Assembly: GCA_905233845.1 (NCBI GenBank)
Contig: CAJOFH010000004.1
Location: 1 to 64,000 of the forward strand
Direction of reading: 5' to 3'
Source: an uncultured Muribaculaceae bacterium
GTDB lineage: Bacteria > Bacteroidota > Bacteroidia > Bacteroidales > Muribaculaceae
DNA: 64,000 nucleotides
Under the pieces are notes generated by a model, which saw only the letters and a program-made list of their open reading frames with translations, was not told the origin of the DNA and did not search any database. Below, one piece after another: positions 1,626 to 64,000 of this stretch; position 1 is the first letter of the stretch, and each line of letters opens with the position of its first letter. Made by a program: the position numbers and the translations under genes.

Positions 1626-2075
1626 ATGAAGAAAACTCTATCAATACTATTGATGATACTCCTAGTGTCAGTCCTTGCAACAAGTGATGCCGATGCCAAA
1701 ACTCGCAAGAAAAACCACAAGGAGCAATCCTCGCGTATTCATATTAGCGCAAATATAAGTGGCACTATGGGACAAGACAAATCTTTTGGTCTTTGTTTGG
1801 ATGGAACGAAAGGAAATATTCAAGATAACTATGGCAATATTATTTATAAAGTAAAGGTTGATTCCTTTAAGAACAACAGATTAATTCTTTCACTATACAA
1901 GAATGGAAAAAAAGTTGCCAAAATGGATGGCACTGTTGAATCAGAATCGATTGTATATGAAGACTCAAAAATAAGATCCACCTATATCTCATGGTATGAT
2001 GGTCAAATCTTCTTTTTTAATAATAACGAGTTTGAATATTCTACAGTATTCACCTTTGACATGCCTGGAGATTAA
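1626..2075 (+). CDS. Secreted protein, array member 2
   Basis: The 149-residue product begins with a signal peptide (MKKTLSILLMILLVSVLA) ending near the TSDADAKTRKK junction, which matches the DAK(V/T) plus basic junction of the other array members. The mature part is about 120 residues of alternating polar and hydrophobic segments, suggesting a small beta-rich domain. No family is recognised. It lacks the DxNxDG motif of members 1 and 4 and the GPHAFY motif of members 5 and 6, so it shares only the leader type. Confidence 0.7.
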   Translation: MKKTLSILLMILLVSVLATSDADAKTRKKNHKEQSSRIHISANISGTMGQDKSFGLCLDGTKGNIQDNYGNIIYKVKVDSFKNNRLILSLYKNGKKVAKMDGTVESESIVYEDSKIRSTYISWYDGQIFFFNNNEFEYSTVFTFDMPGD

Positions 2076-2124
2076 TTTCACCAAAATTATTATCAAAAAT
2101 ATACAATATCAATAATCAACCTTC

Positions 2125-2616
2125 ATGAAACGTTTTACAATCTTAATACTGACTATCGCATTCGCACTGATGGCTGGCAATATCGTTGACGCCAAAGTAA
2201 AGAAATCGCATCACAAAGCAAAAACCACTGCAACCGCTTCTAAATGGATTGAAATAACGAGAAGTGACACATATATCTATTATTATAGTCCCGACATCAA
2301 ATTGCAAGTAGACAATGATGGGTATTATATTATCACTTTTAAAAGAGTGCCGATAAAAAGTTATTTAGAGAGTGATCGACAACAAGGTATAAGCCTATTA
2401 AACAATCCACTATACAAAAATTATACTCATACCATACTACAATATAAAGTTGATATTGACAGAATGCGTTTGATGATCTTGAATGCAGCTTCATTCGCAA
2501 ATAACACTTTGTTAGATATATTCACCCCCTCAAATATTGAATGGATGAATACTGATTACGATACTATAGGTTACGGAATAGCTAAAGCAGCACGATATAT
2601 TGTCAGAGGCTATTGA
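2125..2616 (+). CDS. Secreted protein, array member 3 (possible adhesin E-like)
   Basis: The leader MKRFTILILTIAFALMAGN ends at VDAKVKK, very close to the leader of the gene at 2683. The mature region opens with a WIEI segment and ends with a short W-x-x-x-D-x-x-x-IGYGIAKAA stretch. This layout loosely resembles the small surface-adhesin E-type domain of other Gram-negative secreted proteins, but that is a weak guess. It lies 49 bases after the previous stop and 66 bases before the next start, so co-transcription is possible. Confidence 0.7.
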   Translation: MKRFTILILTIAFALMAGNIVDAKVKKSHHKAKTTATASKWIEITRSDTYIYYYSPDIKLQVDNDGYYIITFKRVPIKSYLESDRQQGISLLNNPLYKNYTHTILQYKVDIDRMRLMILNAASFANNTLLDIFTPSNIEWMNTDYDTIGYGIAKAARYIVRGY

Positions 2617-2682
2617 CAAACACTTAATTCTCACCACTATCTTCCATAAACAATAAACTACAAACAAAAAAACGAAAAAATT

Positions 2683-3459
2683 ATGAAACGATTTGCAATC
2701 ATACTTCTGACTATAGCAGTCGCATTGATGGCTGGCAGTGGCGTTGACGCCAAGGTGAAACGCACAAAACGCACCAAAAATGTCACAACAAAGCTCCCAG
2801 CAAACCTCAACGAGCTGATGCGGGCTCCAAGCATCAAGACCAATGCCGATGGGGTTTATTTCATCAACCGTGATGCGCCCAGGAGTTTGACGCATCTCAA
2901 GGTTGTCAACAAGGAAATTGACAGCCAGGATTTTAAGGCCACAATTTATGTTGACGGCAAGTTGGTGCAAACGGTGAAGCATGCTGCGACACAAAACGAG
3001 ATAAAATTCTTTGATGCAAACTTCGACGGCTATGTCGACATCCTTTTTGGTGCAGCTTACCCTCGTGAGTATAGTGCCATTTTCTTGTGGAACCCAGCAA
3101 ACAAAAAGTATGTCGAAAGTCTCAACAATGGCAGTTTCAATGGGCTGATGGTTGTCAACCCAGGCGCAAAAGAACTCTACTCCTATCTCTCGGGAGGCGC
3201 AAGCTATAGCGGTTACTCTATCTCAAAGTGGCAGGGCAATAAGCTCGTGGAAACTGAACGTCTTGTAGAAATCGAGCCCAGCGACATTCAGGATTATGCC
3301 AACTATGGCTATTGCATGCAGTACAGCGTGATCAACGGCAATTATAATGAAGGCTCCATTAGGCCATATCTCATCCTAGAAACCAATGAGCTCTCAATTG
3401 TTCCAAGCAAGTGGAGAACCATCATGAACAACGTTAACACATGTTTCAATGATTATTAA
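2683..3459 (+). CDS. Secreted protein, array member 4 (FG-GAP-like)
   Basis: Paralogue of the gene at 805. Both have an MKR signal peptide, the VDAKVK junction, the phrase TKLPA followed by N/SINELMR, a DANFDGY(T/V)DI calcium-loop-like motif, and an LWNP motif. The 258-residue product is probably a small secreted or outer-surface beta protein. Base composition is less AT-rich than in array members 1-3. The untranslated leader also resembles that of member 1 (ACTATCTTCCATAAACAA), so the duplication includes the 5' region. Confidence 0.75.
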   Translation: MKRFAIILLTIAVALMAGSGVDAKVKRTKRTKNVTTKLPANLNELMRAPSIKTNADGVYFINRDAPRSLTHLKVVNKEIDSQDFKATIYVDGKLVQTVKHAATQNEIKFFDANFDGYVDILFGAAYPREYSAIFLWNPANKKYVESLNNGSFNGLMVVNPGAKELYSYLSGGASYSGYSISKWQGNKLVETERLVEIEPSDIQDYANYGYCMQYSVINGNYNEGSIRPYLILETNELSIVPSKWRTIMNNVNTCFNDY

Positions 3460-3518
3460 CTCCACCACGAACTGTCTTTTATGTATCAATTCACGCTACC
3501 AAATACAAGTAGAGCAAA

Positions 3519-3594
3519 AATTCTCTCAACTATCTTCCATAAACAAAAACAAAAAAATCATGAAACGAACAGTAATCCTACTTTTAACTATCGT
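3519..3594 (+). repeat. Duplicated 5' leader/signal-sequence cassette, copy 2
   Basis: Near-identical to 764-839 (74 of 76 bases by hand count). It spans the untranslated leader and signal-peptide start of the gene at 3560, whose mature part is unrelated to that of the gene at 805. Confidence 0.8.
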
Positions 3595-4057
3595 CGTCAC
3601 TCTGATGGCGACCACCGACGCAAGCGCCAAAGGCAAAATACGCAAAAGCCGAGGCACAACTATCCCCATCGCCAGCACTATCATGTCATTTATTAACAAG
3701 TTAGACAAGAGTGACCATGCTACTAGGATAACTCCCCCCGCAGGAATTAAGCTAATAGCATCCAATTTGCAGGAAATAGATGATTCCATCGATTATGGCT
3801 GGTTAATTTTTGGAAACAACGTGTCATTAATATGTGACAGTAATGGTAATGTAGATGATATTAATGTTACTGGCCCTCATGCTTTTTATTTCGACTGGAA
3901 TAATTGTAGTGACGCTGGTAATATTATATTCTTCAAGTCAAAAGACGACTGTGATACATTCCTGCGCACTTTTAAGAAAACAAGATACTATTATAAGGGC
4001 TGCAAACCATTATTTGAAGAAGGATGGTATCAAATAATACTTGTTTCTGGCAACTGA
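3560..4057 (+). CDS. Secreted protein, array member 5 (GPHAFY type)
   Basis: An open frame reaches back to 3449 and overlaps the previous gene, but the ATG at 3560 is preferred. It starts the MKRTVILLLTI signal peptide and has the same leader context as the gene at 805. The 165-residue product has a cleavage region near TDASAKGK. Its mature part shares GN-V-x-TGPHAFY, an aromatic/Cys segment and a C-terminal E-x-GW-(Y/F) motif with the gene at 4127, so these two are mature-domain paralogues. Function unknown; export is likely. Confidence 0.75.
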   Translation: MKRTVILLLTIVVTLMATTDASAKGKIRKSRGTTIPIASTIMSFINKLDKSDHATRITPPAGIKLIASNLQEIDDSIDYGWLIFGNNVSLICDSNGNVDDINVTGPHAFYFDWNNCSDAGNIIFFKSKDDCDTFLRTFKKTRYYYKGCKPLFEEGWYQIILVSGN

Positions 4058-4126
4058 TGAGCAATCATTTTATCAGATTACCGTTTTTTGCAATAATAAA
4101 CGACATATCAAACAAATAAATTAATC

Positions 4127-4627
4127 ATGAAACAATTCTTCAAACTCTCAATCATTGTACTAGCACTGGTGTGCATCGCTACACCCATGACAGATGCAAA
4201 AGTCAAAAATTCTCACCGCAGGGCTACAACATCACGCAGTGGAATCCCTTCGGCTAAATCACTTGAGGATATAACTATGTACCTCGAGAACCCTAAAAAA
4301 GTCAAACAAATGACTGGATTAACAAGGCTTTACTATTATATTGAAAAACCTTGCCTAGACAACCACTTTGTTGAAGGTGGATCTTTCATCTATGGTAAGA
4401 ACGCAAAAGCCGATAAACGAGGTAATGTCACAGCAACAGGTCCTCACGCTTTTTATTACAACTATTGCCATGATTTCTCATGTGAAGGATGGGAATATGG
4501 TTTCAGTGACGAATCCGACCGTGATAATTTCTGGAACGAATTAAGTAAAACTCAAGACGATATGGACGAATCCTACGTGAAAAAATACGAAAAAGGCTGG
4601 TTTACGATTGGCTGGGTAGGATGGTGA
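4127..4627 (+). CDS. Secreted protein, array member 6 (GPHAFY type)
   Basis: The leader MKQFFKLSIIVLALVCIATP ends at MTDAKVKN, keeping the DAKVK junction of the array, although the hydrophobic core differs from the MKRTVILLLTI leaders. The mature part matches the gene at 3560 through GNVTATGPHAFY and the EKGWFTIGW end. It has three cysteines. Last gene of the array. No known family recognised; secreted or periplasmic location inferred. Confidence 0.75.
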   Translation: MKQFFKLSIIVLALVCIATPMTDAKVKNSHRRATTSRSGIPSAKSLEDITMYLENPKKVKQMTGLTRLYYYIEKPCLDNHFVEGGSFIYGKNAKADKRGNVTATGPHAFYYNYCHDFSCEGWEYGFSDESDRDNFWNELSKTQDDMDESYVKKYEKGWFTIGWVGW

Positions 4628-4743
4628 TATTTTTGTTTTTATTCTTGAGATGAAATCTATTGGGTTGAGATGCCTTTACTTGACACTAATAATTATATTT
4701 GTCTAAATCACCCCTATTTTGCACTGCTTGCCGCCAAAAGATT

Positions 4744-4830
4744 CTTGAAAAAGTGTGAGATTTCAGCGAAAGTCGCTTGAAAAAGTGTAACTTTGCAGTG
4801 AAAAGTCGCTTGAAATATTGTGACTCTTTT
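4744..4830 (+). repeat. 32-33 bp tandem repeat upstream of the sulfatase-fold gene
   Basis: Three units begin at 4744, 4776 and 4809, each opening with CTTGAAA. The first two also share AAAGTGT and end in AAAGTCG. The second unit contains TAACTTTG at 4788-4795, which could act as a -7 element for the gene starting at 4896. The rest of 4628-4895 holds nothing recognised. Confidence 0.6.
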
Positions 4831-4895
4831 TCCTATTTTATTGACTTTTAGCCACATAATTGGCCCTTCTCTCAAAAACTGCAAACAATAGACTG

Positions 4896-54551: not shown

Positions 54552-55169
54552 TTACTTGAGGTAGGTAATAATGAGGTAGGTGAGCAGGAGCAGGAAGAAC
54601 AATAAGCCACAGCCACCTGGAATGGAACATGCGCAACCACGGGAGCGAGGCATGGAGTCAGGGTTCTGGCTTTGAGCCTGCTCCAACTGCTCTTTTATCT
54701 GTTTCTCGGTCTCATAACGTCGTCCACGGTTCCAATAGTTGCTGGTAAGACGGCTGTCATGATCAATGAGAATCTTGCGTGGATGCATACCGTCGAATGG
54801 CGCCACCACCTTGTTGTCCTCGAGCTGCTGCATAAGAGTCTCGGCACGCTCGGGAGTGATGTCGAAATATCGCTGTAGCATGGGGAGAGTGAGTGCGTCA
54901 CATGTCTTCACATAGTCGACAGCCGCACGGTAGAGCGGATCAAGACCTTCGAGCATCTGCTGCTCCTCGTAGTATTGCTCTCCCTTGAATTGTGGTGGCT
55001 TGTGCTCCAGTTGCTCTATTGGTGCCTTCTCGGTGGGGATATAAGCTATTCCGTCAACAATCTTCAGCACCGACATGCAATTTGGGCATGTGATGGTGTG
55101 GTTGAGCTTCGTCAGCTCCTCCTCGCTTTGATTGGTGACAAATCCACACTTAGGACATTCGATTTTCAT
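54552..55169 (-). CDS. Zinc-ribbon, winged-helix, tail-anchored protein
   Basis: The N-terminus has CPKC and CPNC pairs (residues 4-33), a zinc ribbon. Residues about 80-140 (YRAAVDYVKTCDALTLPMLQRYFDITPERAETLMQQLEDNKVV) look like a FtsK gamma-type winged helix, the DNA-binding module of FtsK. A Cys/Gly-rich turn (CACSIPGGCG) leads into a single C-terminal membrane helix (LLFFLLLLTYLIITYL). It is the last gene of the minus-strand tubulin/Hsp70 block, 21 bases after the next zinc-ribbon gene. Role unknown; a membrane-tethered DNA- or protein-binding adaptor is inferred. Confidence 0.78.
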   Translation of the reverse strand: MKIECPKCGFVTNQSEEELTKLNHTITCPNCMSVLKIVDGIAYIPTEKAPIEQLEHKPPQFKGEQYYEEQQMLEGLDPLYRAAVDYVKTCDALTLPMLQRYFDITPERAETLMQQLEDNKVVAPFDGMHPRKILIDHDSRLTSNYWNRGRRYETEKQIKEQLEQAQSQNPDSMPRSRGCACSIPGGCGLLFFLLLLTYLIITYLK

Positions 55170-55190
55170 TGTTGTTCAGATACTATATTT

Positions 55191-55886
55191 TTAGAAAATA
55201 GAGCCCTCACCATTAACAATATAGAGGATAAAGAATATTGCCACAATGATAATAGTGAAAGTGAGGCAACCCATGATACTGAAGATGCCACTATCCCAAC
55301 TTTTGTTGGATTTTTTTTGTTTTTTGTTAGCTGGTTTTCGTGTATTGCTTGCCATGGGTTGTCTTACTCTGTTTCTTGGGTCTACAGGCTGTTGTTGCCC
55401 ATATCCCAATGGTGGTTGATTGATAGCATTGTTTCGGTTGCCTTGAGGCGCTACGTTGGTATTACCCCTGTAGGACGGTGGAGCAACTTTGGCAAATCGT
55501 CCACATTTAGGGCAAAAGTTCACACCCTGCCTCAGGAATGCTCCACAATACTTGCAGTAGCGCATCACGGCATCGGCGGCAGATTGTGATTGTTGTTGTG
55601 AAGCAGGATTGTAGGCCGGTGGAACAGCAGCTGGCTTGTCGTTAACCGTTGTGGGTGGTGCCTGCTGTGAATCTGTATTAATTTTGTCGTTAGAGTTTCC
55701 ATCCACCTGCTCTTCTTGCTTATTATCAACGCCATCGAGTGAATCCAACTCAGGCTTTATCTGTTCAAAGCCTTCAAGTTCAATGTCATAGAGGCACTGG
55801 GGGCACACGTAGTGTCCCTCAAGTTTTTCTATCTCGTTGATAGAGACGTCAATATGTTTCCCGCAATGGGGGCAGAAGATATTCAT
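55191..55886 (-). CDS. Double zinc-ribbon membrane protein
   Basis: The start is set at the internal ATG 55886 (MNIFCPHCGKHIDV) and not at 55928, because the zinc ribbon follows at once. One CPHC/CPQC ribbon is at the N-terminus; a second, CKYCGAFLRQGVNFCPKCGRF, lies about residues 120-141. A Pro/Asn/Gln-rich linker follows, then a Lys-rich segment and one C-terminal membrane helix (IFSIMGCLTFTIIIVAIFFILYIV). A small domain-poor adaptor of the same operon, probably membrane-anchored with the ribbons in the cytoplasm. Family not recognised. Confidence 0.75.
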   Translation of the reverse strand: MNIFCPHCGKHIDVSINEIEKLEGHYVCPQCLYDIELEGFEQIKPELDSLDGVDNKQEEQVDGNSNDKINTDSQQAPPTTVNDKPAAVPPAYNPASQQQSQSAADAVMRYCKYCGAFLRQGVNFCPKCGRFAKVAPPSYRGNTNVAPQGNRNNAINQPPLGYGQQQPVDPRNRVRQPMASNTRKPANKKQKKSNKSWDSGIFSIMGCLTFTIIIVAIFFILYIVNGEGSIF

Positions 55887-55970
55887 TGGTGGAAGGTGAA
55901 AAGTGGATGGAGGAAGTAGGAAATACAACGAAGACAGTACTTATTACTTCCTCCATTCAACTTTAGTTAT

Positions 55971-57305
55971 TTACTCATAATGAACGATGGCTTTGACCAC
56001 GATGTGCCACTTGCCATTCTCGAGCTGTGCGCGTCCTGCGCGGTCGGTAACGATGCGCGACTTGCCAGCAGTAGACTGGATGTTGTTGCCTGAGCAAGCA
56101 CGGGTGAGAGTGTCGCCAGGCATGAGAAGTGCAAGCTTATGAGCCTCGGCCTTGTTGATAACGGTAAACGAACCGCTCTTGCCGTTCATGGTAGTGAGCT
56201 CAAAGATGGAGTTTCCAGGCTCATACTGAGAAGATGAGCGCGAGAAGTTGTCATCCTCGTCGGGCTTAGCCATAAAGAGAATCTTAGGCTCGCCAAAAGC
56301 TGGAGCAGTCTTGACAGGCTCTTTCTTGGTGTCGTCGGCCTTCTTAGTATCGTCGGCCTTCATTGGCTCAATGGCTTTCTTAGGACCGTCAACCTTTTTG
56401 GGCTCTTGCTTCACAGGCTGCTTGTCACCACCTGCGGGGCGGTTTCCAAACTGGATTTTCTTGGTTTGAGGCAGATCATCCTTTTTTCCGTCAAGTGGTT
56501 GCTTGCCCTGAGCGTTCTTTGCTGGCATAGCAGCAACAGCAGCTCCACTCTTGAGAGCAGCACGCAACTTGTCGATTTGCTTCTGCAAGTTGTTGATATC
56601 CTCGTGGTTGTCACGTGCAGCAGCCTGACTCTCCTTGCGGGCTTGCATAGCGAGGAAAGTGCCAATAGCGCCCAGACCTAAACCCAGAATCGAGAGGATG
56701 TAGAGCAAACCATGTCCAGAATCGCTATCCTTGTTTTCTTCCTTCTTGACTTCTTCGTTGGCGTTGGCGGTGTCCTCGGCAACATTAACGGTCTCGCCGT
56801 TGCCGTCGGTTGTCACTGTTACCTTGCTGTCATCGACAGCTGCCTCGTTGGGAGCTGGTGCCTCACTTTGGGTGTTTACCTCGTTGCCTGTGTGAGTAGC
56901 ATTGTATTTCACGGTGGCATTCCTCACACCGTTTTTGATTACAGAACCTTTCTCATACACGCTGGCAACGGTCTCGACCAACTTGTCCACATCGCCAGAC
57001 TCATTCTCATGCGCTTTGAGTTTGTTGTAGTAGTTCATCCACTTCTCGCGGCTACCGTACATCGACTTGAGGTCGTCGAGCGAATAGTTCTCATTGGTCC
57101 TCGACACAACCTGGTTGTCGGCCTGAGCAAAGCCCAAGTCACGTGCAATCCACTGAGCGCCAATGGCCAGACCATGGTTCCACTGCCCTTGCGACAGATT
57201 TGATGATTTCTCGGGAGCAGGAGCCTGCTGAGCTTGTTGAGCATCTTGCCCCATCGCTGTCATGGCACCCATGACGCACACTAAGATAAAAATAATTTTT
57301 TTCAT
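55971..57305 (-). CDS. Signal-peptide membrane protein with conserved C-terminal domain
   Basis: A signal peptide (MKKIIFILVCVMGAMTAMG) precedes a Gln/Ala-rich stretch and a folded segment with WNHGLAIGAQWIARDLGFAQ. A central membrane helix (HGLLYILSILGLGLGAIGTFLAM, about 205-227) is followed by a coiled region and a low-complexity Lys/Pro/Asp-rich linker with repeated (P/M)KADDTKK. The C-terminal 110 residues form a compact domain with NSIFELTTMNGKSGSFTV and RACSGNNIQSTAGKSRIVTDRAGRAQLENGKWHIV. No known family. The layout places one domain outside and one inside the inner membrane, fitting a bridge for the neighbouring nucleotide-binding proteins. Confidence 0.75.
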   Translation of the reverse strand: MKKIIFILVCVMGAMTAMGQDAQQAQQAPAPEKSSNLSQGQWNHGLAIGAQWIARDLGFAQADNQVVSRTNENYSLDDLKSMYGSREKWMNYYNKLKAHENESGDVDKLVETVASVYEKGSVIKNGVRNATVKYNATHTGNEVNTQSEAPAPNEAAVDDSKVTVTTDGNGETVNVAEDTANANEEVKKEENKDSDSGHGLLYILSILGLGLGAIGTFLAMQARKESQAAARDNHEDINNLQKQIDKLRAALKSGAAVAAMPAKNAQGKQPLDGKKDDLPQTKKIQFGNRPAGGDKQPVKQEPKKVDGPKKAIEPMKADDTKKADDTKKEPVKTAPAFGEPKILFMAKPDEDDNFSRSSSQYEPGNSIFELTTMNGKSGSFTVINKAEAHKLALLMPGDTLTRACSGNNIQSTAGKSRIVTDRAGRAQLENGKWHIVVKAIVHYE

Positions 57306-57358
57306 TTCGATTGATGGCTTTATAATTTATTATGTTATTTATTACACATTAATAGAGT

Positions 57359-60300
57359 TTATATCGTGTTAGAAATCACCTCGTTGCAGAGGTTTTTCAA
57401 GAGGTTGTGGCGGATGATGCCTATGATGGGGTAGAAGAACGGCACGTCCTCAATGGCCTCGTCGCCTGTGTAGCGCCCCTTGAGATAATTGCCAATGCCC
57501 GCTGTAAGATAGTTGCCAATGTTGTCACTGATGACACTAATGAAGATGCGGAACACCTTGTTGTCGATGCCGAACTCATCTTTAGTAACATTGTCGCACA
57601 GCGAGATGAAGAACTCGTTGAAGGCTCGCACCTGCTCGATGAGCTTGTCGCGCACCTCGATATCATAGACCGACTTGATGGTTAGCGGCTTCTCGTCGAT
57701 CATCGAGTAGCAATACTTCATGGCGTTGACGTTGCGAGGCGTGAGCCGCTGCACGTCGACGTTGCCATCCATGCGCAGACTCTCGAGCTTGATACCGCCA
57801 CGGCTGGTGATTTGCTTGGGATTGCTTTGCTCAATCTTGATAGAGAAGCGCTCGGTGAACTCTTTCTCAAACACCTTCTCGAGAATAAGCTTAGTGAACT
57901 CAGTAACCTGATCCTGGGTGCCCAGAATGTTCAAAATCTTAGAGCCTGTGCCGCTGAAGTAGATTTGCTTGGGCATCTCGTAGTCACGCGCCTTCATCGA
58001 CTGAGCAATGTAGTAGATGATTGCGGCGTAGAAGTACATGAAGATGAGCTTGCGCTGCGAGTCATTTCGCAGCAATGTGTTGTAGCTGTAAATGTTACGG
58101 TCCACCTCACGCAGCTTGCGCAACTGCTCAACATTCTCGATTGAGAAGAGGAAGGCGTTAACGTCCTGCGAACGCTTGCGCTTGAGCACGTCTTGCAATA
58201 TACTATTGAGGTAGCCTATGTCATTGTTCTTGGAAATCAGCCGCTTGAAGTACTCGCCATAGTGACGGATGAGCGGGTTGTTATCGGCATCGCGCTCGGT
58301 GAATGCGTCGCCAAAGATTGCATCGCCAGCAAAACGGAATGACGAGATAGCCACTGGCTCGGTGTCGAGGCGATTGGCTGTGGGCTGATAAATCACGGTA
58401 TCGGTAGTGCCACCACCAATATCGATAGAGACAAAGCTGCCACCACTCACATCGTCGCCCTTATAGAAATAGGCTGGGGCGATGCTCTCGGGATAGGCGT
58501 GGAGATGACTGGTGTCCTCGCCAAAGTAGGTGTGATACAGCTCGTTCCAAGTGTCGTCGAGTTTGCGACGGTCGCTACCTCCCATACTAACTGGGAAGAA
58601 ATAGACGATGCTGGTGCGATTAAGGTCACCATTCTCGAGCAACACCTTTGCCTTGATGAGCAGCACCAGCTCGCGCAAGAACTCGCGCGAGAGTGTGATG
58701 TCGCCCATCCACTTGAGATTGGTTGTGATGTCGTAGCCGTCGAAGTACTGGCGCTCATAGAGGAACGGGATGTTAATGTCGCCAAAAAGTTTGTGGCCAC
58801 CAGTGCTGATGGCATTGCGGGCGAGAGCACTTCGCAATGGGAAACCGTACACCTTGTCAATGTCGCTGGGCAGGAATTCCACACGCTGCAACTGGTCGGC
58901 AAAGAGCAATGTGCCACGTTTGAGCAACGATGCGATAAGTACCTGATGCTCGCCATGAGCAAATTGCAAGTCTTGCGCATCGTGACCACGTTCCGACCAC
59001 TCGACGTGGCTATTGGTGGTGCCGAAGTCGACTGCAAAAATCAGCTCTTTGCTACTTGCCACATAGGGCTTCCACAAAGGAACAACATATCCTGAGAATT
59101 CTCCCGAAGGAGTACTTATATTGGTCTTTATGAAGTCGAAAGTGCCCTCTAAATCGTAATATTTGGTAGAATAGGTACCCTCGGAACGGGTCTTACCGCT
59201 AATCTTAAGGTTGTCGGTAAGCATACCGTTCTTGAAGAACTGGAGCGAGGCATTGCCACCCTCTATCATTGTGAAGAGCTGGACGGTGTAATCGTCCTTA
59301 TAATTGGTGCGGACGAACGGGAAAATGGCTGTGGACATCACCACATTAGTGATGATGCGACCAGTGCCACGCTTCTCGTCGAACTGCCACGAGGGGTCAT
59401 CGATGGGGTAGTAGTTGCGAGTCAGCTCAATGTATCGCTTCTTGAGCGGCACACGCAGCGTCACGTTGACCGAGCCGTCGATGAGCTCTTCCATCTCGAG
59501 CATGTTGCGGCCATGCACCTGCTTAGTAACGTCGCTGGCGTTGAAATACTTGAAGAACTCCTCGGTGAGCGGCAGCAGATAACCGTTGTTAGAAGGCATC
59601 ATCTTGTTGATAACGTTGCCGTTGAAATAGTGACTCTCGTCGATGGGACCTGCAAGACGAATGAGAGTGTCCTGCAAGAAGTCGCCTGTGGTGATAAAAG
59701 GATAGATGATGCTCGTGTCGGGGAGTTTGCGCTTGTTGATAGGGATACTACCCACATAGACCTGAGTGGAGCTGTCCCATTCCTTGTCGATGTAGATATA
59801 GTGGTCAACACTGCCGTTGAAGTTATTGCGAAGCACAAGTGGCAGAGGACCTTCAACCTGTCGGGTTGGAGCTATCACAAAGTCGCTGTTTTCGGCAGAC
59901 GTCTTGATGTCGCGAGCGCGCTTGTGATAAAGTCGTGCTCCAAGCACCGTCACCTCGTCATCGCCAACAAAGGGGTCGAACTCCAAGTCCAATCGCTCAA
60001 CCAAACGAGGTGCGAGTTCATGATTCAGTGCTTCAAGGTTAGGAATCACCTGTGTGAGTCGGCGGTAAAGCTCAGGCTTTTTCTGCATGATGATATCCTT
60101 GTTCTTGAGCATATAGTCGTAAACGCCTTTCACTGAGGTGCGCAGCGTGGGGAAGGCATTGAAGAGCATGAACATGTAGTAGACGAAATCCTCGTCGCGC
60201 TGCCACAGGTCGCGGGTGTCACTGTCGAATAGCGAAATACCTTGCTCTACCTTGATGCCAGAAATTGGTTTCTCACTCTCGCGAGGCACGGCGATGGTCA

Positions 60301-60790
60301 TCGACGATGGCGAGGTGGCACCTATCACCTGACTGTTCCACAAAAGGATATACCAATCGGTAAGCAGATTGAAGTTATACTTAGTGTCGCTGCCGAGGAA
60401 GAGTTCGAGAGTCTCGCCATAGAGACGGTGCTCAGGTTCGCTCTTGAGGCGCTCAATCTGCTCTTCACGGTTCCAGCGCACGATGTGCAGATAGTCCTTG
60501 TGGTTCTCGAAATCGAAGAAAAGCTGTGCCACGTCGAGGGCGTTAGACACCAATCGCTTGTCCATCATCGAACCGCTCAGACGAGCATTGCTTGAGAGAT
60601 GCTCAAAGGCGTTCTTCACCAAGTCGAGCTGGGCGAAAGGACTCGGAATGGCAGTGCGAGGGTTCTCGCTCATGCCACCGTTGGGGTCCTTGATTTGCTT
60701 GATGTCGTCGTCAACATAGGGGGCAACAGGAATCCAGTCCTGCGCGCTCGTCTTCGTTGTCTTTTTGTTATATGATAGTACTTGACTCAT
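57359..60790 (-). CDS. Large Hsp70/actin-fold ATPase-like protein
   Basis: The ATPase core lies in the middle: phosphate-1 loop AVDFGTTNSHVEW (about residue 585), phosphate-2 loop SIDIGGGTTDTVIY (about 787), adenosine motif YFSGTGSKILNIL (about 945). These are the three hallmark motifs of the Hsp70/actin/sugar-kinase superfamily, here clearly Hsp70-like. About 580 residues precede and 180 follow the core, with no recognised domain. Total length (1143) is twice that of DnaK, and the substrate-binding domain of DnaK is not seen. It may be related to large SrfB-type proteins; this should be tested. Next to the tubulin-like gene in one block. Confidence 0.82.
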   Translation of the reverse strand: MSQVLSYNKKTTKTSAQDWIPVAPYVDDDIKQIKDPNGGMSENPRTAIPSPFAQLDLVKNAFEHLSSNARLSGSMMDKRLVSNALDVAQLFFDFENHKDYLHIVRWNREEQIERLKSEPEHRLYGETLELFLGSDTKYNFNLLTDWYILLWNSQVIGATSPSSMTIAVPRESEKPISGIKVEQGISLFDSDTRDLWQRDEDFVYYMFMLFNAFPTLRTSVKGVYDYMLKNKDIIMQKKPELYRRLTQVIPNLEALNHELAPRLVERLDLEFDPFVGDDEVTVLGARLYHKRARDIKTSAENSDFVIAPTRQVEGPLPLVLRNNFNGSVDHYIYIDKEWDSSTQVYVGSIPINKRKLPDTSIIYPFITTGDFLQDTLIRLAGPIDESHYFNGNVINKMMPSNNGYLLPLTEEFFKYFNASDVTKQVHGRNMLEMEELIDGSVNVTLRVPLKKRYIELTRNYYPIDDPSWQFDEKRGTGRIITNVVMSTAIFPFVRTNYKDDYTVQLFTMIEGGNASLQFFKNGMLTDNLKISGKTRSEGTYSTKYYDLEGTFDFIKTNISTPSGEFSGYVVPLWKPYVASSKELIFAVDFGTTNSHVEWSERGHDAQDLQFAHGEHQVLIASLLKRGTLLFADQLQRVEFLPSDIDKVYGFPLRSALARNAISTGGHKLFGDINIPFLYERQYFDGYDITTNLKWMGDITLSREFLRELVLLIKAKVLLENGDLNRTSIVYFFPVSMGGSDRRKLDDTWNELYHTYFGEDTSHLHAYPESIAPAYFYKGDDVSGGSFVSIDIGGGTTDTVIYQPTANRLDTEPVAISSFRFAGDAIFGDAFTERDADNNPLIRHYGEYFKRLISKNNDIGYLNSILQDVLKRKRSQDVNAFLFSIENVEQLRKLREVDRNIYSYNTLLRNDSQRKLIFMYFYAAIIYYIAQSMKARDYEMPKQIYFSGTGSKILNILGTQDQVTEFTKLILEKVFEKEFTERFSIKIEQSNPKQITSRGGIKLESLRMDGNVDVQRLTPRNVNAMKYCYSMIDEKPLTIKSVYDIEVRDKLIEQVRAFNEFFISLCDNVTKDEFGIDNKVFRIFISVISDNIGNYLTAGIGNYLKGRYTGDEAIEDVPFFYPIIGIIRHNLLKNLCNEVISNTI

Positions 60791-60800
60791 AATAGTTGTC

Positions 60801-60845
60801 AGTTTTTTGCTATAGATTCTCTAGATGTTCTAGAATTGATAAGTT
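60801..60845. repeat. Short CTAGA-type repeat
   Basis: CTCTAGATGTTCTAGAAT in the 61-base gap between the tubulin-like and Hsp70-like genes, of the same type as the repeats at 6918-6970 and 25475-25512. Confidence 0.5.
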
Positions 60846-60851
60846 TTCCAC

Positions 60852-62381
60852 TTAATTGATATTATCGTAGCGGTCGGTGATAATTTTCTCGGCGGCAGTA
60901 TAGAACAGGTCCATGAGTTTGAGTTCAGGATTGCTGCCGTAACTGTTATTGTCGCGGCTAAGCTTGTTCATCTCGGCCTTAAAGACGTCGTTGTCAACCT
61001 TCTTGCTTCCAAAGATGCTCTTCTTGGTGAGCACCTTGTGTATGGCCTTGTTCATGTCCATCTCGTCCTCGTTGAAGAGGGTGACATGGCGACGGTTGTG
61101 GAGCATCTCGCTAGTCCATTCGATATAGCTGTCGAAAAACTGCTGGGTGAGGATGCGGTAGAACTGTGTGCCCATGAACTCGCGAGTAATCTTGGGCGAG
61201 TCCTCGGTAAAGCCCTGACCAATGATTCCCCTCAAGCCAGTTCTCAAGAAGATGTAGAGCAAGTGTAACTTAACGAGTGGACGATATATCATAGCGCGTG
61301 TTTCCTGGCCGAAGCCCGAGAAGTCGACGAAATCGGTGTCGTGCTCCAGACCATACTCAAAGGCCTTGGTAGGCAAGGGTTCGCCAGTGGCAAGGTCGGT
61401 GAGCTCACTGTCATCAAGACTCAGGAACTTGAACGGAGCCATAGCTCCCACCATCTCGATGAGGTGAGCAGGGTCATGCTGGTCGCGCTTGTCGCCTGGG
61501 TCGTAGGCATAGGGAGCGTTGTGGCCGTGGTCTCCCAAGTAGAAGATGGCATTCACAGCGTTACGACCATTACCTGTTAGTGTGTTGTTGTAATATTCGA
61601 GCGCGCTCTGCGTCTTAACGATAAAGTCGGCGTTGTCGATTCGCTTGTCGTTCTTGTCTTCGCTTTCCATAAGCGAGAAGTATGGGAGGACGGTGAGTCC
61701 ACCGATGGGTGCACGCTGAAGGAAAGCCTTGTTCTTGGCATCAATATTCTTGGCTTGACGGATATTCTTCACGATGATTGGAAATCCTGCAGCTCCAGTA
61801 CCTCCAAAGATGCTGCTGATAAAGAAGATGCGGTCACCGTCGGCAAAGACGTTGGCAAAAGCCTTGAACTCGTTGCTGTCCTTGATGCCATTCAGCGCCA
61901 CGCTGCCAATATTAGGCGAGCCCACGAAGCCAATACTCATCTTATTCTCGAGCTGATAGTCGGCAAAGAGCAGAGAAGTGAGCGCCTGGTTAGGCTCGTT
62001 CATGGTATTATAGCTGATGAAATCGCGGAACTTGTAGTTCTCGACGGCGGCTAGGTTGAAGATGAACGAGTCGTCGAGTGGCACTTGGCTGCTCGACACC
62101 ACTTCTTTCAATGTCGAGATTTTGGTGGCGAAGAAGCCGTTGGCATTGGCATTCTTGCCATAGAGGCGGTCGCGGATGGCGCTATAGGCACTTAGGAGCT
62201 TCTCGGTGCGCTTGAGGTCGGCATTCGACTTGTGAGGGTCGATGATGATGGGCACAAGCTCCACATCTTGCAGCGGGTGTCCATTAGAGTCGACAGGCCT
62301 CACGCCAGCGGCGCAAAGCATTATCATCGACTTGAGCACGCGTGAACCGGTGCCTCCTATTGCAAATATAAATAGTTTCAT
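60852..62381 (-). CDS. Tubulin/FtsZ-like protein
   Basis: The N-terminal strand-loop FIFAIGGTGSRVLKSM (residues 4-19) and the glycine-rich loop ISSIFGGTGAAGFPIIV (G193-G199) resemble the first nucleotide-binding loop and the GGTGxG signature of tubulin/FtsZ; ELVPIIIDPHKSNADLKR between them matches the dinucleotide-contacting strand of the Tubulin_2 group. Length 509 is longer than FtsZ, and the C-terminal third has no known motif. It probably binds GTP and may polymerise; this is inference. Fifth-from-last gene of a minus-strand block together with an Hsp70/actin-fold protein. Confidence 0.78.
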   Translation of the reverse strand: MKLFIFAIGGTGSRVLKSMIMLCAAGVRPVDSNGHPLQDVELVPIIIDPHKSNADLKRTEKLLSAYSAIRDRLYGKNANANGFFATKISTLKEVVSSSQVPLDDSFIFNLAAVENYKFRDFISYNTMNEPNQALTSLLFADYQLENKMSIGFVGSPNIGSVALNGIKDSNEFKAFANVFADGDRIFFISSIFGGTGAAGFPIIVKNIRQAKNIDAKNKAFLQRAPIGGLTVLPYFSLMESEDKNDKRIDNADFIVKTQSALEYYNNTLTGNGRNAVNAIFYLGDHGHNAPYAYDPGDKRDQHDPAHLIEMVGAMAPFKFLSLDDSELTDLATGEPLPTKAFEYGLEHDTDFVDFSGFGQETRAMIYRPLVKLHLLYIFLRTGLRGIIGQGFTEDSPKITREFMGTQFYRILTQQFFDSYIEWTSEMLHNRRHVTLFNEDEMDMNKAIHKVLTKKSIFGSKKVDNDVFKAEMNKLSRDNNSYGSNPELKLMDLFYTAAEKIITDRYDNIN

Positions 62382-62450
62382 TTATCGTCGTTTATCGTTT
62401 TTTGTTTATCATTCATGGAAAACTTGTGAGATAATCTCAACTCCCTCTCA

Positions 62451-62891
62451 TTACTGAGGAATGGGCGTGTGGCGGCAGTTGCTGCTCCACCATCTTATCG
62501 AGAACGAAGCAATGACAAAGGTCACTGCAGTAAACAAGATGTTGTAAAACGCAAAAGTGAACTCGGATGTGGAGTAGTCAAAGCCCTCAAGGAAGTTATC
62601 AATCACGATATAGCACACCACTGGTGTGAGCACGCTGGCAATGCCCAACATCGCCAACCAGTGATACCAGCGGTCGAACTTCACCGAGTTAATCACATAG
62701 TAGTAAATGGCCGCCAAGCCCCATGCCATGGCAATGGTAATGGCTGCCACCGAGCCATAAGCTCCCGTGTTATACATCTGGTCGCTGAAGCCGTTGACAT
62801 TATAAACAGCCTCATATAGCTCTACCCTAAAAATCCAGAACAGAACGCTCAAAACCGCTCCAATAACTAGAAATATTACTTTATCTCGCAT
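62451..62891 (-). CDS. Four-helix membrane protein
   Basis: 146 residues with four predicted membrane helices (about 5-22, 46-66, 78-98, 112-132), separated by short polar loops; the N-terminal and C-terminal ends are both basic. No known family. It begins 11 bases after the stop of the vWA-like gene and precedes the tubulin-like gene by 69 bases, so it probably serves as a membrane partner in the same block. Confidence 0.72.
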   Translation of the reverse strand: MRDKVIFLVIGAVLSVLFWIFRVELYEAVYNVNGFSDQMYNTGAYGSVAAITIAMAWGLAAIYYYVINSVKFDRWYHWLAMLGIASVLTPVVCYIVIDNFLEGFDYSTSEFTFAFYNILFTAVTFVIASFSIRWWSSNCRHTPIPQ

Positions 62892-62902
62892 CTTAAAAAA
62901 AT

Positions 62903-64000
62903 TTAGTTTTCGAGTTTAATTACAATTTTACCATAAGTGTCGTTGCCAGCCGAGAAGGCATCATATATACCCTGCAAAAAGCGTTCCAAACCAAAAGTGG
63001 TGGTAGCGAAGCCAGCCACCGAGGAGTCGGTGTCGCTGGTTGACGACGACTCTTTTATCCAATTGGGGAACTGGTTGGCAAGGGTTATCGACAGTTCATC
63101 GTGTGAAGTGTTGAACTTACCCTTGGCAGTAATCAGGTGTGTCATGCCATCGAGGTAGGTGCGGTTGTTGTTAGTAATGTCATCAGGACTGATGGCACGT
63201 ATTGTGATTCCAAAACCGCTCTGCGACTGCACGGTATAGTTTGCCACATTGCTTAAGAACGCGTCATCCTTGTTCAATGGCTTGAGGTTTGCAGCGATAG
63301 TAAAGCAAAGTATGCCAGTCTCGCGGTCGCCCTCACAGTCAATGAGCTTGTTCTGCTCATCGCGCGCCACTCTGAACCGTCCCACGTTGTCCTTCCAGTC
63401 GGGCACCACCTTCACATTAAGCTCGCTCTGCGCTTGATTGAAACGATAGCTGTTCTTCACTGCACTGGGGTGCAGGAACTTAGCATACTTGTCGTCGGCG
63501 CTCATGCGATCGATAGTCGATGCGTCGGCAACAATTATCAAGTAGAAGGGACGCTTGCCATTATAGGCAAAAGGTTGACCGTTATAAGGATAATACTGTC
63601 CGTTGTAGTCGCCCATCATCTGGTTGACAATGATTGACTTACCTTTATAGGTCTTGAAAATGCTTGTTGCCACGCTGTTCTCCTCGTTGAGGATTTTCTC
63701 GATGCTCACGTCGGCAGTGTTCTGTGGCGAGTAGATGAGGTCGGTAACAAGCACACTCACGTTGCCTGGCTTCTGCGCTTGGATAATCTTCTCGAAGATA
63801 AGCTTGAAATCGGTGTAACTGGCATTGCCAGTACCCTTTGTGCTCTCGTAGATGTTGCGATCCTGCAAGAACGAGTCAACAGTGCCACTATAGGGGTAGA
63901 TGTTGTCGTTCACGATGTTGATTTTAACACCGTCCTTGCTTGGGAAGAAGTTTATGAGATCATTGACAGCCTTCTTGAGCTGGCCGCCACCACCTGGAGT
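62903..64000 (-). CDS. Probable vWA-like protein, 5' end outside the window
   Basis: The frame is open to the window edge. The first visible residues (TPGGGGQLKKAVNDLINFFP) continue the same frame past the GTG at 63913, so that codon is not the start. About 365 residues are visible. VSVLVTDLIYSPQN with its Asp resembles the later metal-site strand of a von Willebrand A domain, and RPFYLIIVADASTIDRM is another conserved block. The N-terminal metal-site motif would lie beyond the window. C-terminal half unknown. First visible gene of the tubulin/Hsp70 block. Confidence 0.7.
   Translation of the reverse strand, partial: TPGGGGQLKKAVNDLINFFPSKDGVKINIVNDNIYPYSGTVDSFLQDRNIYESTKGTGNASYTDFKLIFEKIIQAQKPGNVSVLVTDLIYSPQNTADVSIEKILNEENSVATSIFKTYKGKSIIVNQMMGDYNGQYYPYNGQPFAYNGKRPFYLIIVADASTIDRMSADDKYAKFLHPSAVKNSYRFNQAQSELNVKVVPDWKDNVGRFRVARDEQNKLIDCEGDRETGILCFTIAANLKPLNKDDAFLSNVANYTVQSQSGFGITIRAISPDDITNNNRTYLDGMTHLITAKGKFNTSHDELSITLANQFPNWIKESSSTSDTDSSVAGFATTTFGLERFLQGIYDAFSAGNDTYGKIVIKLEN

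Follow-up and report, generated by a model that had tools for sequence, protein, structure and literature searches.

Positions 1 to 64,000 of contig CAJOFH010000004.1, from an uncultured Muribaculaceae bacterium (GCA_905233845.1), form the 64,000-nucleotide window analyzed here. Its minus-strand block at 54552..64000 is a conserved module of seven genes built around a divergent tubulin and a giant actin/Hsp70-superfamily ATPase, and this gene set may represent an undescribed envelope-spanning machine. The open reading frames (ORFs) were checked against a preliminary description of the same DNA, which had reported seven consecutive minus-strand genes with gaps of 11 to 84 bases. All seven were confirmed, with gaps of 21, 84, 53, 61, 69, and 11 bases (taking the second zinc-ribbon gene from the ATG at 55886). 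The source contig has 83311 bases, and the window end cuts the vWA-type gene. The block consists of the following genes:

62903..64000 in the window (62903-64372 in full on the contig), minus strand: vWA-type lipoprotein, 489 amino acids (aa), with a signal peptide, a lipobox-like Cys29, and an ExSxS pattern resembling a metal ion-dependent adhesion site (MIDAS)
62451..62891, minus strand: TM146, a 146-aa membrane protein with four transmembrane (TM)-like segments by hydropathy
60852..62381, minus strand: tubulin/FtsZ-superfamily protein, 509 aa, divergent and Tubulin_2-like by profiles and models
57359..60790, minus strand: 1143-aa protein with an actin/Hsp70-superfamily ATPase domain at ca. 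580 to 1020, after an N-terminal part of ca. 580 residues, by profiles and models
55971..57305, minus strand: signal-peptide/transmembrane (SP/TM) protein, 444 aa, probably bitopic, with a signal-peptide-like start, an export-side region, a TM-like segment at ca. 199 to 222, a charged linker, and a C-terminal domain
55191..55886, minus strand: second zinc-ribbon protein, 231 aa, with a C-terminal TM-like segment, by Pfam and hydropathy
54552..55169, minus strand: 205-aa protein with a zinc ribbon, an FtsK-gamma domain, and a C-terminal TM-like segment, by Pfam

Related loci were collected by a scan with the giant ATPase, keeping one genome per species, and were searched by tblastn with nine genes. 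Among the 33 loci obtained, matches were found for the vWA-type gene in 29, TM146 in 30, the tubulin gene in 30, the ATPase gene in 33, and the SP/TM gene in 30 (with a conserved C-terminal domain of ca. 100 residues), as well as for the second zinc-ribbon gene in 24 and the zinc-ribbon/FtsK-gamma gene in 21. The first five of these counts indicate that the block is kept together beyond chance. Some loci are partial: L012 and L032 start inside the ATPase gene, L020 starts at TM146, and L023 and L034 end inside the ATPase gene. The tubulin gene stood upstream of the ATPase gene on the same strand in 30 of the 31 loci that could be judged upstream (L012 and L032 excluded), in L021 at a distance of 2.7 kb with an extra ORF between the two. 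The true exception was L013 (genome G691), where the ATPase gene is alone and the tubulin (1.1e-232) and vWA-type (1.6e-193) genes are on the other contigs C136 and C77. Scattering of the genes among relatives, which the preliminary description had named as evidence against its reading, was observed in one genome, with the three genes searched (ATPase, tubulin, and vWA-type) on three contigs. According to G691, the block can be dispersed with these three genes retained.

The pairing of the two nucleotide-binding proteins extends to the family sample, where the ATPase gene was found downstream of the tubulin gene, on the same strand and within 5 kb, in 84 of 90 tubulin loci (each entered once, though some had two matched stretches). 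As for the six others, the ATPase lies on a different contig in three genomes (G540, G683, and G590), and no ATPase is listed beside the tubulin at the remaining three loci (G685 C2, G534 C65, and G475 C184). Across the 49 loci with long enough copies of three genes (fragmentary loci and L034 were dropped), pairwise distances of tubulin and ATPase were closely correlated (rho, 0.951), as were those of the vWA-type protein with both (0.904 and 0.901); uncorrected for a housekeeping baseline, this correlation shows joint descent and not contact. The gene order of the core is retained in several families, and we regard the conserved module as firmly established.

Immediately upstream of the block, past the window end, the contig carries two further minus-strand genes, one with five TM-like segments (64537-65403, TM288) and one with a zinc ribbon (65431-66543), followed by a plus-strand gene that we take to be PpiD-like. 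The first of them matched in 0 of the 33 loci by tblastn, and the second matched in 22, over 9 to 53% of its length, with the matches falling where the block's second zinc-ribbon gene lies. Because the upstream TM gene is unmatched and the upstream zinc ribbon matches one already in the block, the conserved unit was set at seven genes.

The labels tubulin-like and Hsp70-like in the preliminary description were backed by profiles or models, the latter in the sense of the actin/Hsp70 superfamily. The GTPase domain of the tubulin-like protein matches Tubulin_2, and its glycine loop reads SSIFGGTGAAGF in 18 of 19 members and SSIFGGTGSSGF in the remaining one, with GGTG kept and other positions differing. 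Sequence-profile searches of solved structures gave nothing significant for the tubulin (0.46), the ATPase (0.18), or the vWA-type protein (0.59), after which the first two were modeled. The tubulin model has a helical C-terminal part (helices at 359-381 and 406-427); Foldseek was weak on it (best, 1.4e-3, the rows including nucleoside hydrolases), and VIA gave a clear list. For the ATPase domain, Foldseek ranked DnaK/Hsp70 at the top (1.5e-8), while FtsA came first by VIA Z, with MreB and PilM within 1. The Pfam model FtsA (PF14450) was matched by 3 of 19 ATPase members (best, 0.0018), and Pfam HSP70 was not among the matches of these 19 at E values of ≤0.1. Judging from the models, in which FtsA, MreB, and PilM score as well as or better than DnaK, the Hsp70-like label should be read as actin/Hsp70 superfamily. 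Hsp70 chaperones have an N-terminal ATPase followed by a substrate-binding domain, unlike the block protein, with its ATPase domain at ca. 580-1020 of 1143. Tubulin-fold and actin-fold proteins also meet at the inner membrane in the FtsZ-FtsA divisome pair, which resembles the block in this pairing of folds but is distant in sequence and has other partners. SrfB/SrfABC, our first suspicion for the giant protein, was rejected: Pfam SrfB (PF07520) reached 0.074 in 1 of 19 members and 0.14 in the window ATPase (10.6 bits, against a cutoff of 27.1).

The vWA-like label stood in part. Cys29, E115, S117, and D211 are present in all 18 aligned relatives, S119 is present in 17 of them, and the T/S position of the MIDAS is kept in 18 of 18 (the MIDAS part falls past the window end). 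No Pfam vWA match was found, either in the window part or in 18 full-length members, so that we infer the fold from the invariant E, S, and D positions; one of these members has a TSP_3 repeat (Pfam, 2.5e-4). A GAK system was considered and dropped, as the NCBIfam XXXCH match of the vWA-type part (0.024) was far under the cutoff. The vWA-type protein has an export signal and the giant ATPase has none; overall, hydropathy and export-type signals agree with the preliminary description of a largely membrane-linked gene set. At the downstream end, the 231-aa protein matches Zn_ribbon_3 (1.4e-8) and DZR (1.2e-7) in Pfam when scanned without its first Met. The 205-aa protein matches FtsK_gamma (1.9e-12; 47.1 bits, against a cutoff of 30.6), a domain present in 11 of 11 scanned homologues; the only other match in the genome is an 837-aa frame taken to be FtsK. 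Reading of FtsK-orienting polar sequences (KOPS) by the block's domain was judged unlikely, given that the other FtsK-gamma frame has YNRAGRIMDQLE and the block protein has PERAETLMQQLE at residues presumed to contact DNA.

Several relatives add a pair of genes resembling ZorA/ZorB right after the core. In L051, the first of them matches MotA_ExbB just under the cutoff (2.6e-4) and ZorA2 in PADLOC (3.5e-5), and the second matches OmpA weakly (0.0099) and PADLOC ZorB1 (6.8e-13); among the pairs, PADLOC was run on this one only. Of the L054 pair, the ZorB-type protein gave an OmpA match below the cutoff (2.2e-5), and the ZorA-type protein gave none in Pfam. With profiles made from L051 and L054, the pair was found after the core in L051, L054, L082, L083, L087, L089, L091, L100, L102, and L103; the SP/TM gene was unmatched in L083, L087, L089, L102, and L103. 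The pair was not found after the ATPase gene in loci such as L049, L053, L085, L088, L090, L095, L097, L098, and L099, nor in the window. Motor-bearing loci turn up in several parts of the average-linkage ATPase clustering, a pattern suggesting that the pair was lost or gained repeatedly. The ZorB-type profile gave 15 places in the family sample, and 11 of the 13 strong ones adjoin the ATPase on the same contig; the other two strong ones are in G475, on another contig, and in G411, without a tubulin. The two weak places set aside were in G452 (8.4e-4) and in the genome of the window (5.5e-4).

Neither ZorA nor ZorB was detected in the window operon by Pfam or PADLOC, and the L051 ZorA query, run without a positive control, returned nothing in this genome. 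Its weak ZorB match was rejected as part of the block, as it belongs to a separate MotA/OmpA pair on contig C53, for which a role in trans is conceivable. There (L109 8952-14024), genes for a 1002-aa Sel1-repeat protein and a SprT-like protein come after the MotA_ExbB and OmpA-domain pair, and the stretch may represent a further motor-linked system.

Presence of the system varies with taxonomic depth. The tubulin profile matched 13 of 395 phylum genomes and 82 of 297 family genomes, including 40 of 40 own or same-genus genomes in the sample; the unmatched rows, among those listed, begin at the "same family" level, and 42 of 257 family genomes outside the genus have the tubulin (82/297 less 40). 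The ATPase profile matched 83 of the 297 family genomes. Both were found in 81, the tubulin only in G534, and the ATPase only in G494 and G541. A single-sequence ATPase search of the phylum matched 11 of 296 genomes; in five, the match was borderline (3e-4 to 1e-3) and fell in frames of ca. 430 aa, taken as probable other actin-fold proteins. Searches with the tubulin found six matches in 72,556 plasmid records and none in 50,697 phage records, and a viral origin was set aside. On the Gloeothece plasmid NC_014503 (typed mobilizable), a divergent tubulin (Tubulin_2, 2.2e-10) and ATPase (profile, 1.1e-21) lie in tandem; the annotation there gives a "tubulin-like doman-containing protein" and hypothetical proteins. 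Further resemblances on this plasmid, noted by eye and without profile matches, are a four-TM-like protein upstream, two signal-peptide-like proteins downstream, and a DGSGSM-bearing divergent lipoprotein. The core with motor is also carried by two IMG/VR contigs of putative viral status (L102 and L103), 95 to 98% identical to each other. In G475, a prophage-like insert of ca. 40 kb splits the ATPase gene (contig C319, L111 2889 to L112 17575, 64.8-105.6 kb; Phage_Mu_F, 1.1e-15), and, judged by this insert, the system seems dispensable there.

In the relatives tested, the accessory genes look like conflict cargo. Trypsin-like peptidases are found near the core in L085, L099, and L100, with members of the same BLAST cluster in L082 and L098; PADLOC RT-Protease_XI matches the peptidase in L082 (1.1e-19) and L100 (3.5e-18). 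The proteins after ZorB in L083, L087, and L102 match the candidate PDC-S14 of PADLOC (the one in L102 is a DUF4357 protein, 1.6e-24), and L102 also has Endonuclease_NS (9.7e-41). Other neighbors are YkuD and SH3_3 proteins beside the core in L053, an aspartyl protease in L049, and a protein kinase (Pkinase) gene upstream of the core in L097. Six block proteins (all except the second zinc-ribbon protein) had no PADLOC match at 0.01, and no ZorC/D, ZorE, or ZorF/G name appeared among the PADLOC matches of these six and ten proteins of relatives, a set that covers part of the neighbors.

The preliminary description knew of no described system with this composition, a statement that must be revised in view of two papers, which, like the others cited here, are compared through part of their content. 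Systems with vWA and FtsZl1, some with OmpA-domain partners, were predicted in 2010 (Makarova and Koonin, PMC2875224), in operons that also include kinases and GTPases, and membrane remodeling was proposed for them; the group was linked to Tubulin_2 (PF13809) in 2023 (PMC9871819). The block resembles FtsZl1 systems in having a tubulin-superfamily gene beside a vWA-type protein (which may carry a signal peptide), many membrane-linked partners, and, in some genomes, OmpA-domain proteins. The 2010 paper gives the glycine loop GGGTG(S/T)G as the superfamily signature and an extended coiled coil between the GTPase and helical C-terminal domains as an FtsZl1 feature, and its FtsZl1 alignment includes Bacteroides caccae. 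Unlike those systems, the block has a near-constant actin/Hsp70-superfamily ATPase directly downstream of the tubulin, its relatives pair a MotA-type partner with the OmpA/MotB-type protein, its glycine loop in the window is FGGTGAAG, which departs from the signature, and by Pfam its operon has no kinase or divergent GTPase, frequent in FtsZl1 operons. Because of the differing glycine loop and the missing kinase and GTPase partners, we file the block as a divergent FtsZl1 variant and not as plain FtsZl1. In the main text of PMC2875224 (Additional Files 5-6 lay outside this check), "Hsp70" and "MotA" do not occur, and the lone "actin-like" is in a reference title.

A 2020 paper (Kaur et al., PMC7159879) describes conflict systems centered on GTPases that include tubulin and vWA, as well as HSP70; its overview combines GTPases with tubulin and HSP70, and its detailed section presents tubulin and HSP70 as themes that do not overlap, found in Firmicutes and Actinobacteria. 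The DO-GTPase/GAP1-N2 systems among them share with the block the tubulin and vWA genes together, one vWA being extracellular, and TM proteins, but are built on a TRAFAC GTPase and GAP1. Among the Pfam matches listed for the window operon (25 of 29 in one list), from a library that should hold such models, there is no TRAFAC DO-GTPase or GAP1 name. In the portion of PMC7159879 covered, "ExbB" and "MotA" are absent, and "ZorA" occurs only as an author name. Zorya combines ZorA/ZorB with ZorC/D, ZorE, or ZorF/G (PMC11890865); several relatives of the block likewise carry ZorA/ZorB-type proteins, while the window operon lacks them and the tested neighbors have no Zorya effector name. "Tubulin," "Hsp70," and "vWA" do not appear in the text covered of that paper. 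As far as they were covered (2010 supplements excluded), PMC2875224 and PMC7159879 do not contain the combination of tubulin, actin-type ATPase, and ZorAB. Literature searches, with subscription papers largely beyond their reach, found no work joining tubulin, actin/Hsp70-fold, and ZorA/ZorB proteins (the single match for ZorA, ZorB, and tubulin had tubulin only in a reference title) and none giving the 2010 FtsZ-like/vWA prediction a mechanism.

We give close to an even chance to the reading of the block as coding for a single nucleotide-driven assembly that spans the envelope. On the cytoplasmic side, the divergent tubulin GTPase and the large actin-superfamily ATPase would act as partners, probably assembling into a filament, ring, or patch tethered to the membrane. 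The bitopic SP/TM and four-TM proteins would relay the state of this assembly across the inner membrane to the exported vWA-type lipoprotein, whose metal-site domain may act as a clamp on an envelope partner or target. In several relatives, force would come from a stator of the ZorA/ZorB type, presumably driven by protons. In the genus of the window, with the pair outside the operon and tail-anchored zinc-ribbon/FtsK-gamma proteins instead, the device would be powered by GTP/ATP alone or would depend on a borrowed motor. The preliminary description had proposed an envelope-bound mechanical or remodeling machine, or a conflict system; the mechanical version becomes more credible with the MotA/MotB (ZorA/ZorB)-type pair that several relatives carry directly behind the core. 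Gene order, co-conservation, folds, nucleotide motifs, export-type signals, and the linkage to ZorAB in relatives come from sequences or models; the vWA fold, a physical complex, polymerization, force transmission, and the purpose are inferred. Two observations weigh against the assembly: the missing Pfam vWA match, and L092 (G390 C38, 7125-12267; a genome listed with 13% contamination), in which the vWA-type, four-TM, and tubulin genes (the last with a stop) are directly followed by a ZorA/ZorB-type pair, with no ATPase found. For these reasons, confidence was lowered both in this reading and in its filament-plus-motor form, an envelope-spanning machine of tubulin-fold and actin-fold NTPases (an FtsZ/FtsA-like pair serving something other than ordinary division) with a proton-driven ZorAB/MotAB-type stator and an exported vWA-type clamp. 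Such a machine would occur in several families of Bacteroidota, would have a relative in the cyanobacterial tubulin-ATPase pair, and would lack the motor in the window genus. In that complete form, we consider it unlikely.

A phage-defense (conflict) machine working like Zorya, in which the envelope part would sense infection damage, the tubulin and actin-type proteins would be the switch, and an accessory protein would be the effector, is possible, though we would not call it probable. The ZorA/ZorB-type genes of relatives (named ZorA2 and ZorB1 by PADLOC in L051), the peptidases, PDC-S14-like DUF4357 protein, and Endonuclease_NS beside the motor, and the patchiness outside the genus (42/257) argue for it, together with the two IMG/VR contigs carrying core and motor and the divergent tubulin-ATPase pair on a mobilizable plasmid. 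Presence in 40 of 40 own-genus genomes would be unusual for a defense locus, however, and the window version has no recognized effector, no PADLOC match among the six proteins scanned at 0.01, and a tubulin unmatched in the phage records. Universality in the genus sample speaks for upkeep, that is, for a housekeeping cytoskeleton of FtsZ-like and FtsA-like proteins that shape or organize the inner membrane, as Makarova and Koonin proposed for FtsZl1 (PMC2875224, in the part covered). The high ranks of FtsA, MreB, and PilM, the mostly membrane-linked partners, and an operon closed by an FtsK-gamma domain otherwise matched only in the presumed FtsK point the same way, but patchiness in the family (82/297) and phylum (13/395), the ATPase gene split in one strain, the varied accessory genes, and plasmid carriage make this rather unlikely; patchiness outside the genus, plasmid and contig carriage, motor, and cargo favor defense.

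A chaperone device is improbable. In it, the Hsp70-fold protein would refold or assemble clients, the vWA-type protein would be its co-chaperone, and the tubulin would act as a regulatory GTPase. DnaK/Hsp70 is first in Foldseek (1.5e-8), HSP70 is a component of described conflict systems in which vWA and tubulin are used as well (PMC7159879, as covered), and a protein upstream of the core in L085 matches Pfam HSP70; against this, none of the 19 ATPase members has such a match at E values of ≤0.1, the C-terminal position of the ATPase domain leaves little room for a standard substrate-binding domain, and the supposed co-chaperone has an export signal that the ATPase lacks. That the seven genes are a chance neighborhood is practically out of the question: G691 has three of them on three contigs, but adjacency in 84 of 90 family loci, gene order retained in several families, and the tandem on a cyanobacterial plasmid contradict it. 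If the block does encode one assembly, a single envelope device would unite cytoskeletal NTPases with an ion-driven stator, and defense versus envelope upkeep would become testable for FtsZ-like paralogue systems in harmless gut and soil Bacteroidota. The present results add likely Bacteroidota partners to the 2010 prediction: an actin-superfamily ATPase directly next to the tubulin and a ZorA/ZorB-type motor in several lineages.

Further ATPase and motor genes were observed in some genomes. The L085 protein just mentioned is a second protein of ca. 1100 aa (1641-4847, 1069 aa; HSP70, 2.1e-6), with genes of similar size in L084, L098, and L099, and from this match some branches may encode two actin/Hsp70-fold proteins. 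In the own-genus genome G411, a ZorA/ZorB-type pair on contig C13 (L110 5473-9982, a stretch with no tubulin or ATPase) is preceded by a 780-aa protein that matches PD-(D/E)XK weakly. The same genome has a copy of the core on C11 and, on C14 (L088), a tandem of ATPase-like ORFs of 1223 and 909 aa, for which the profile search lists one ATPase place.

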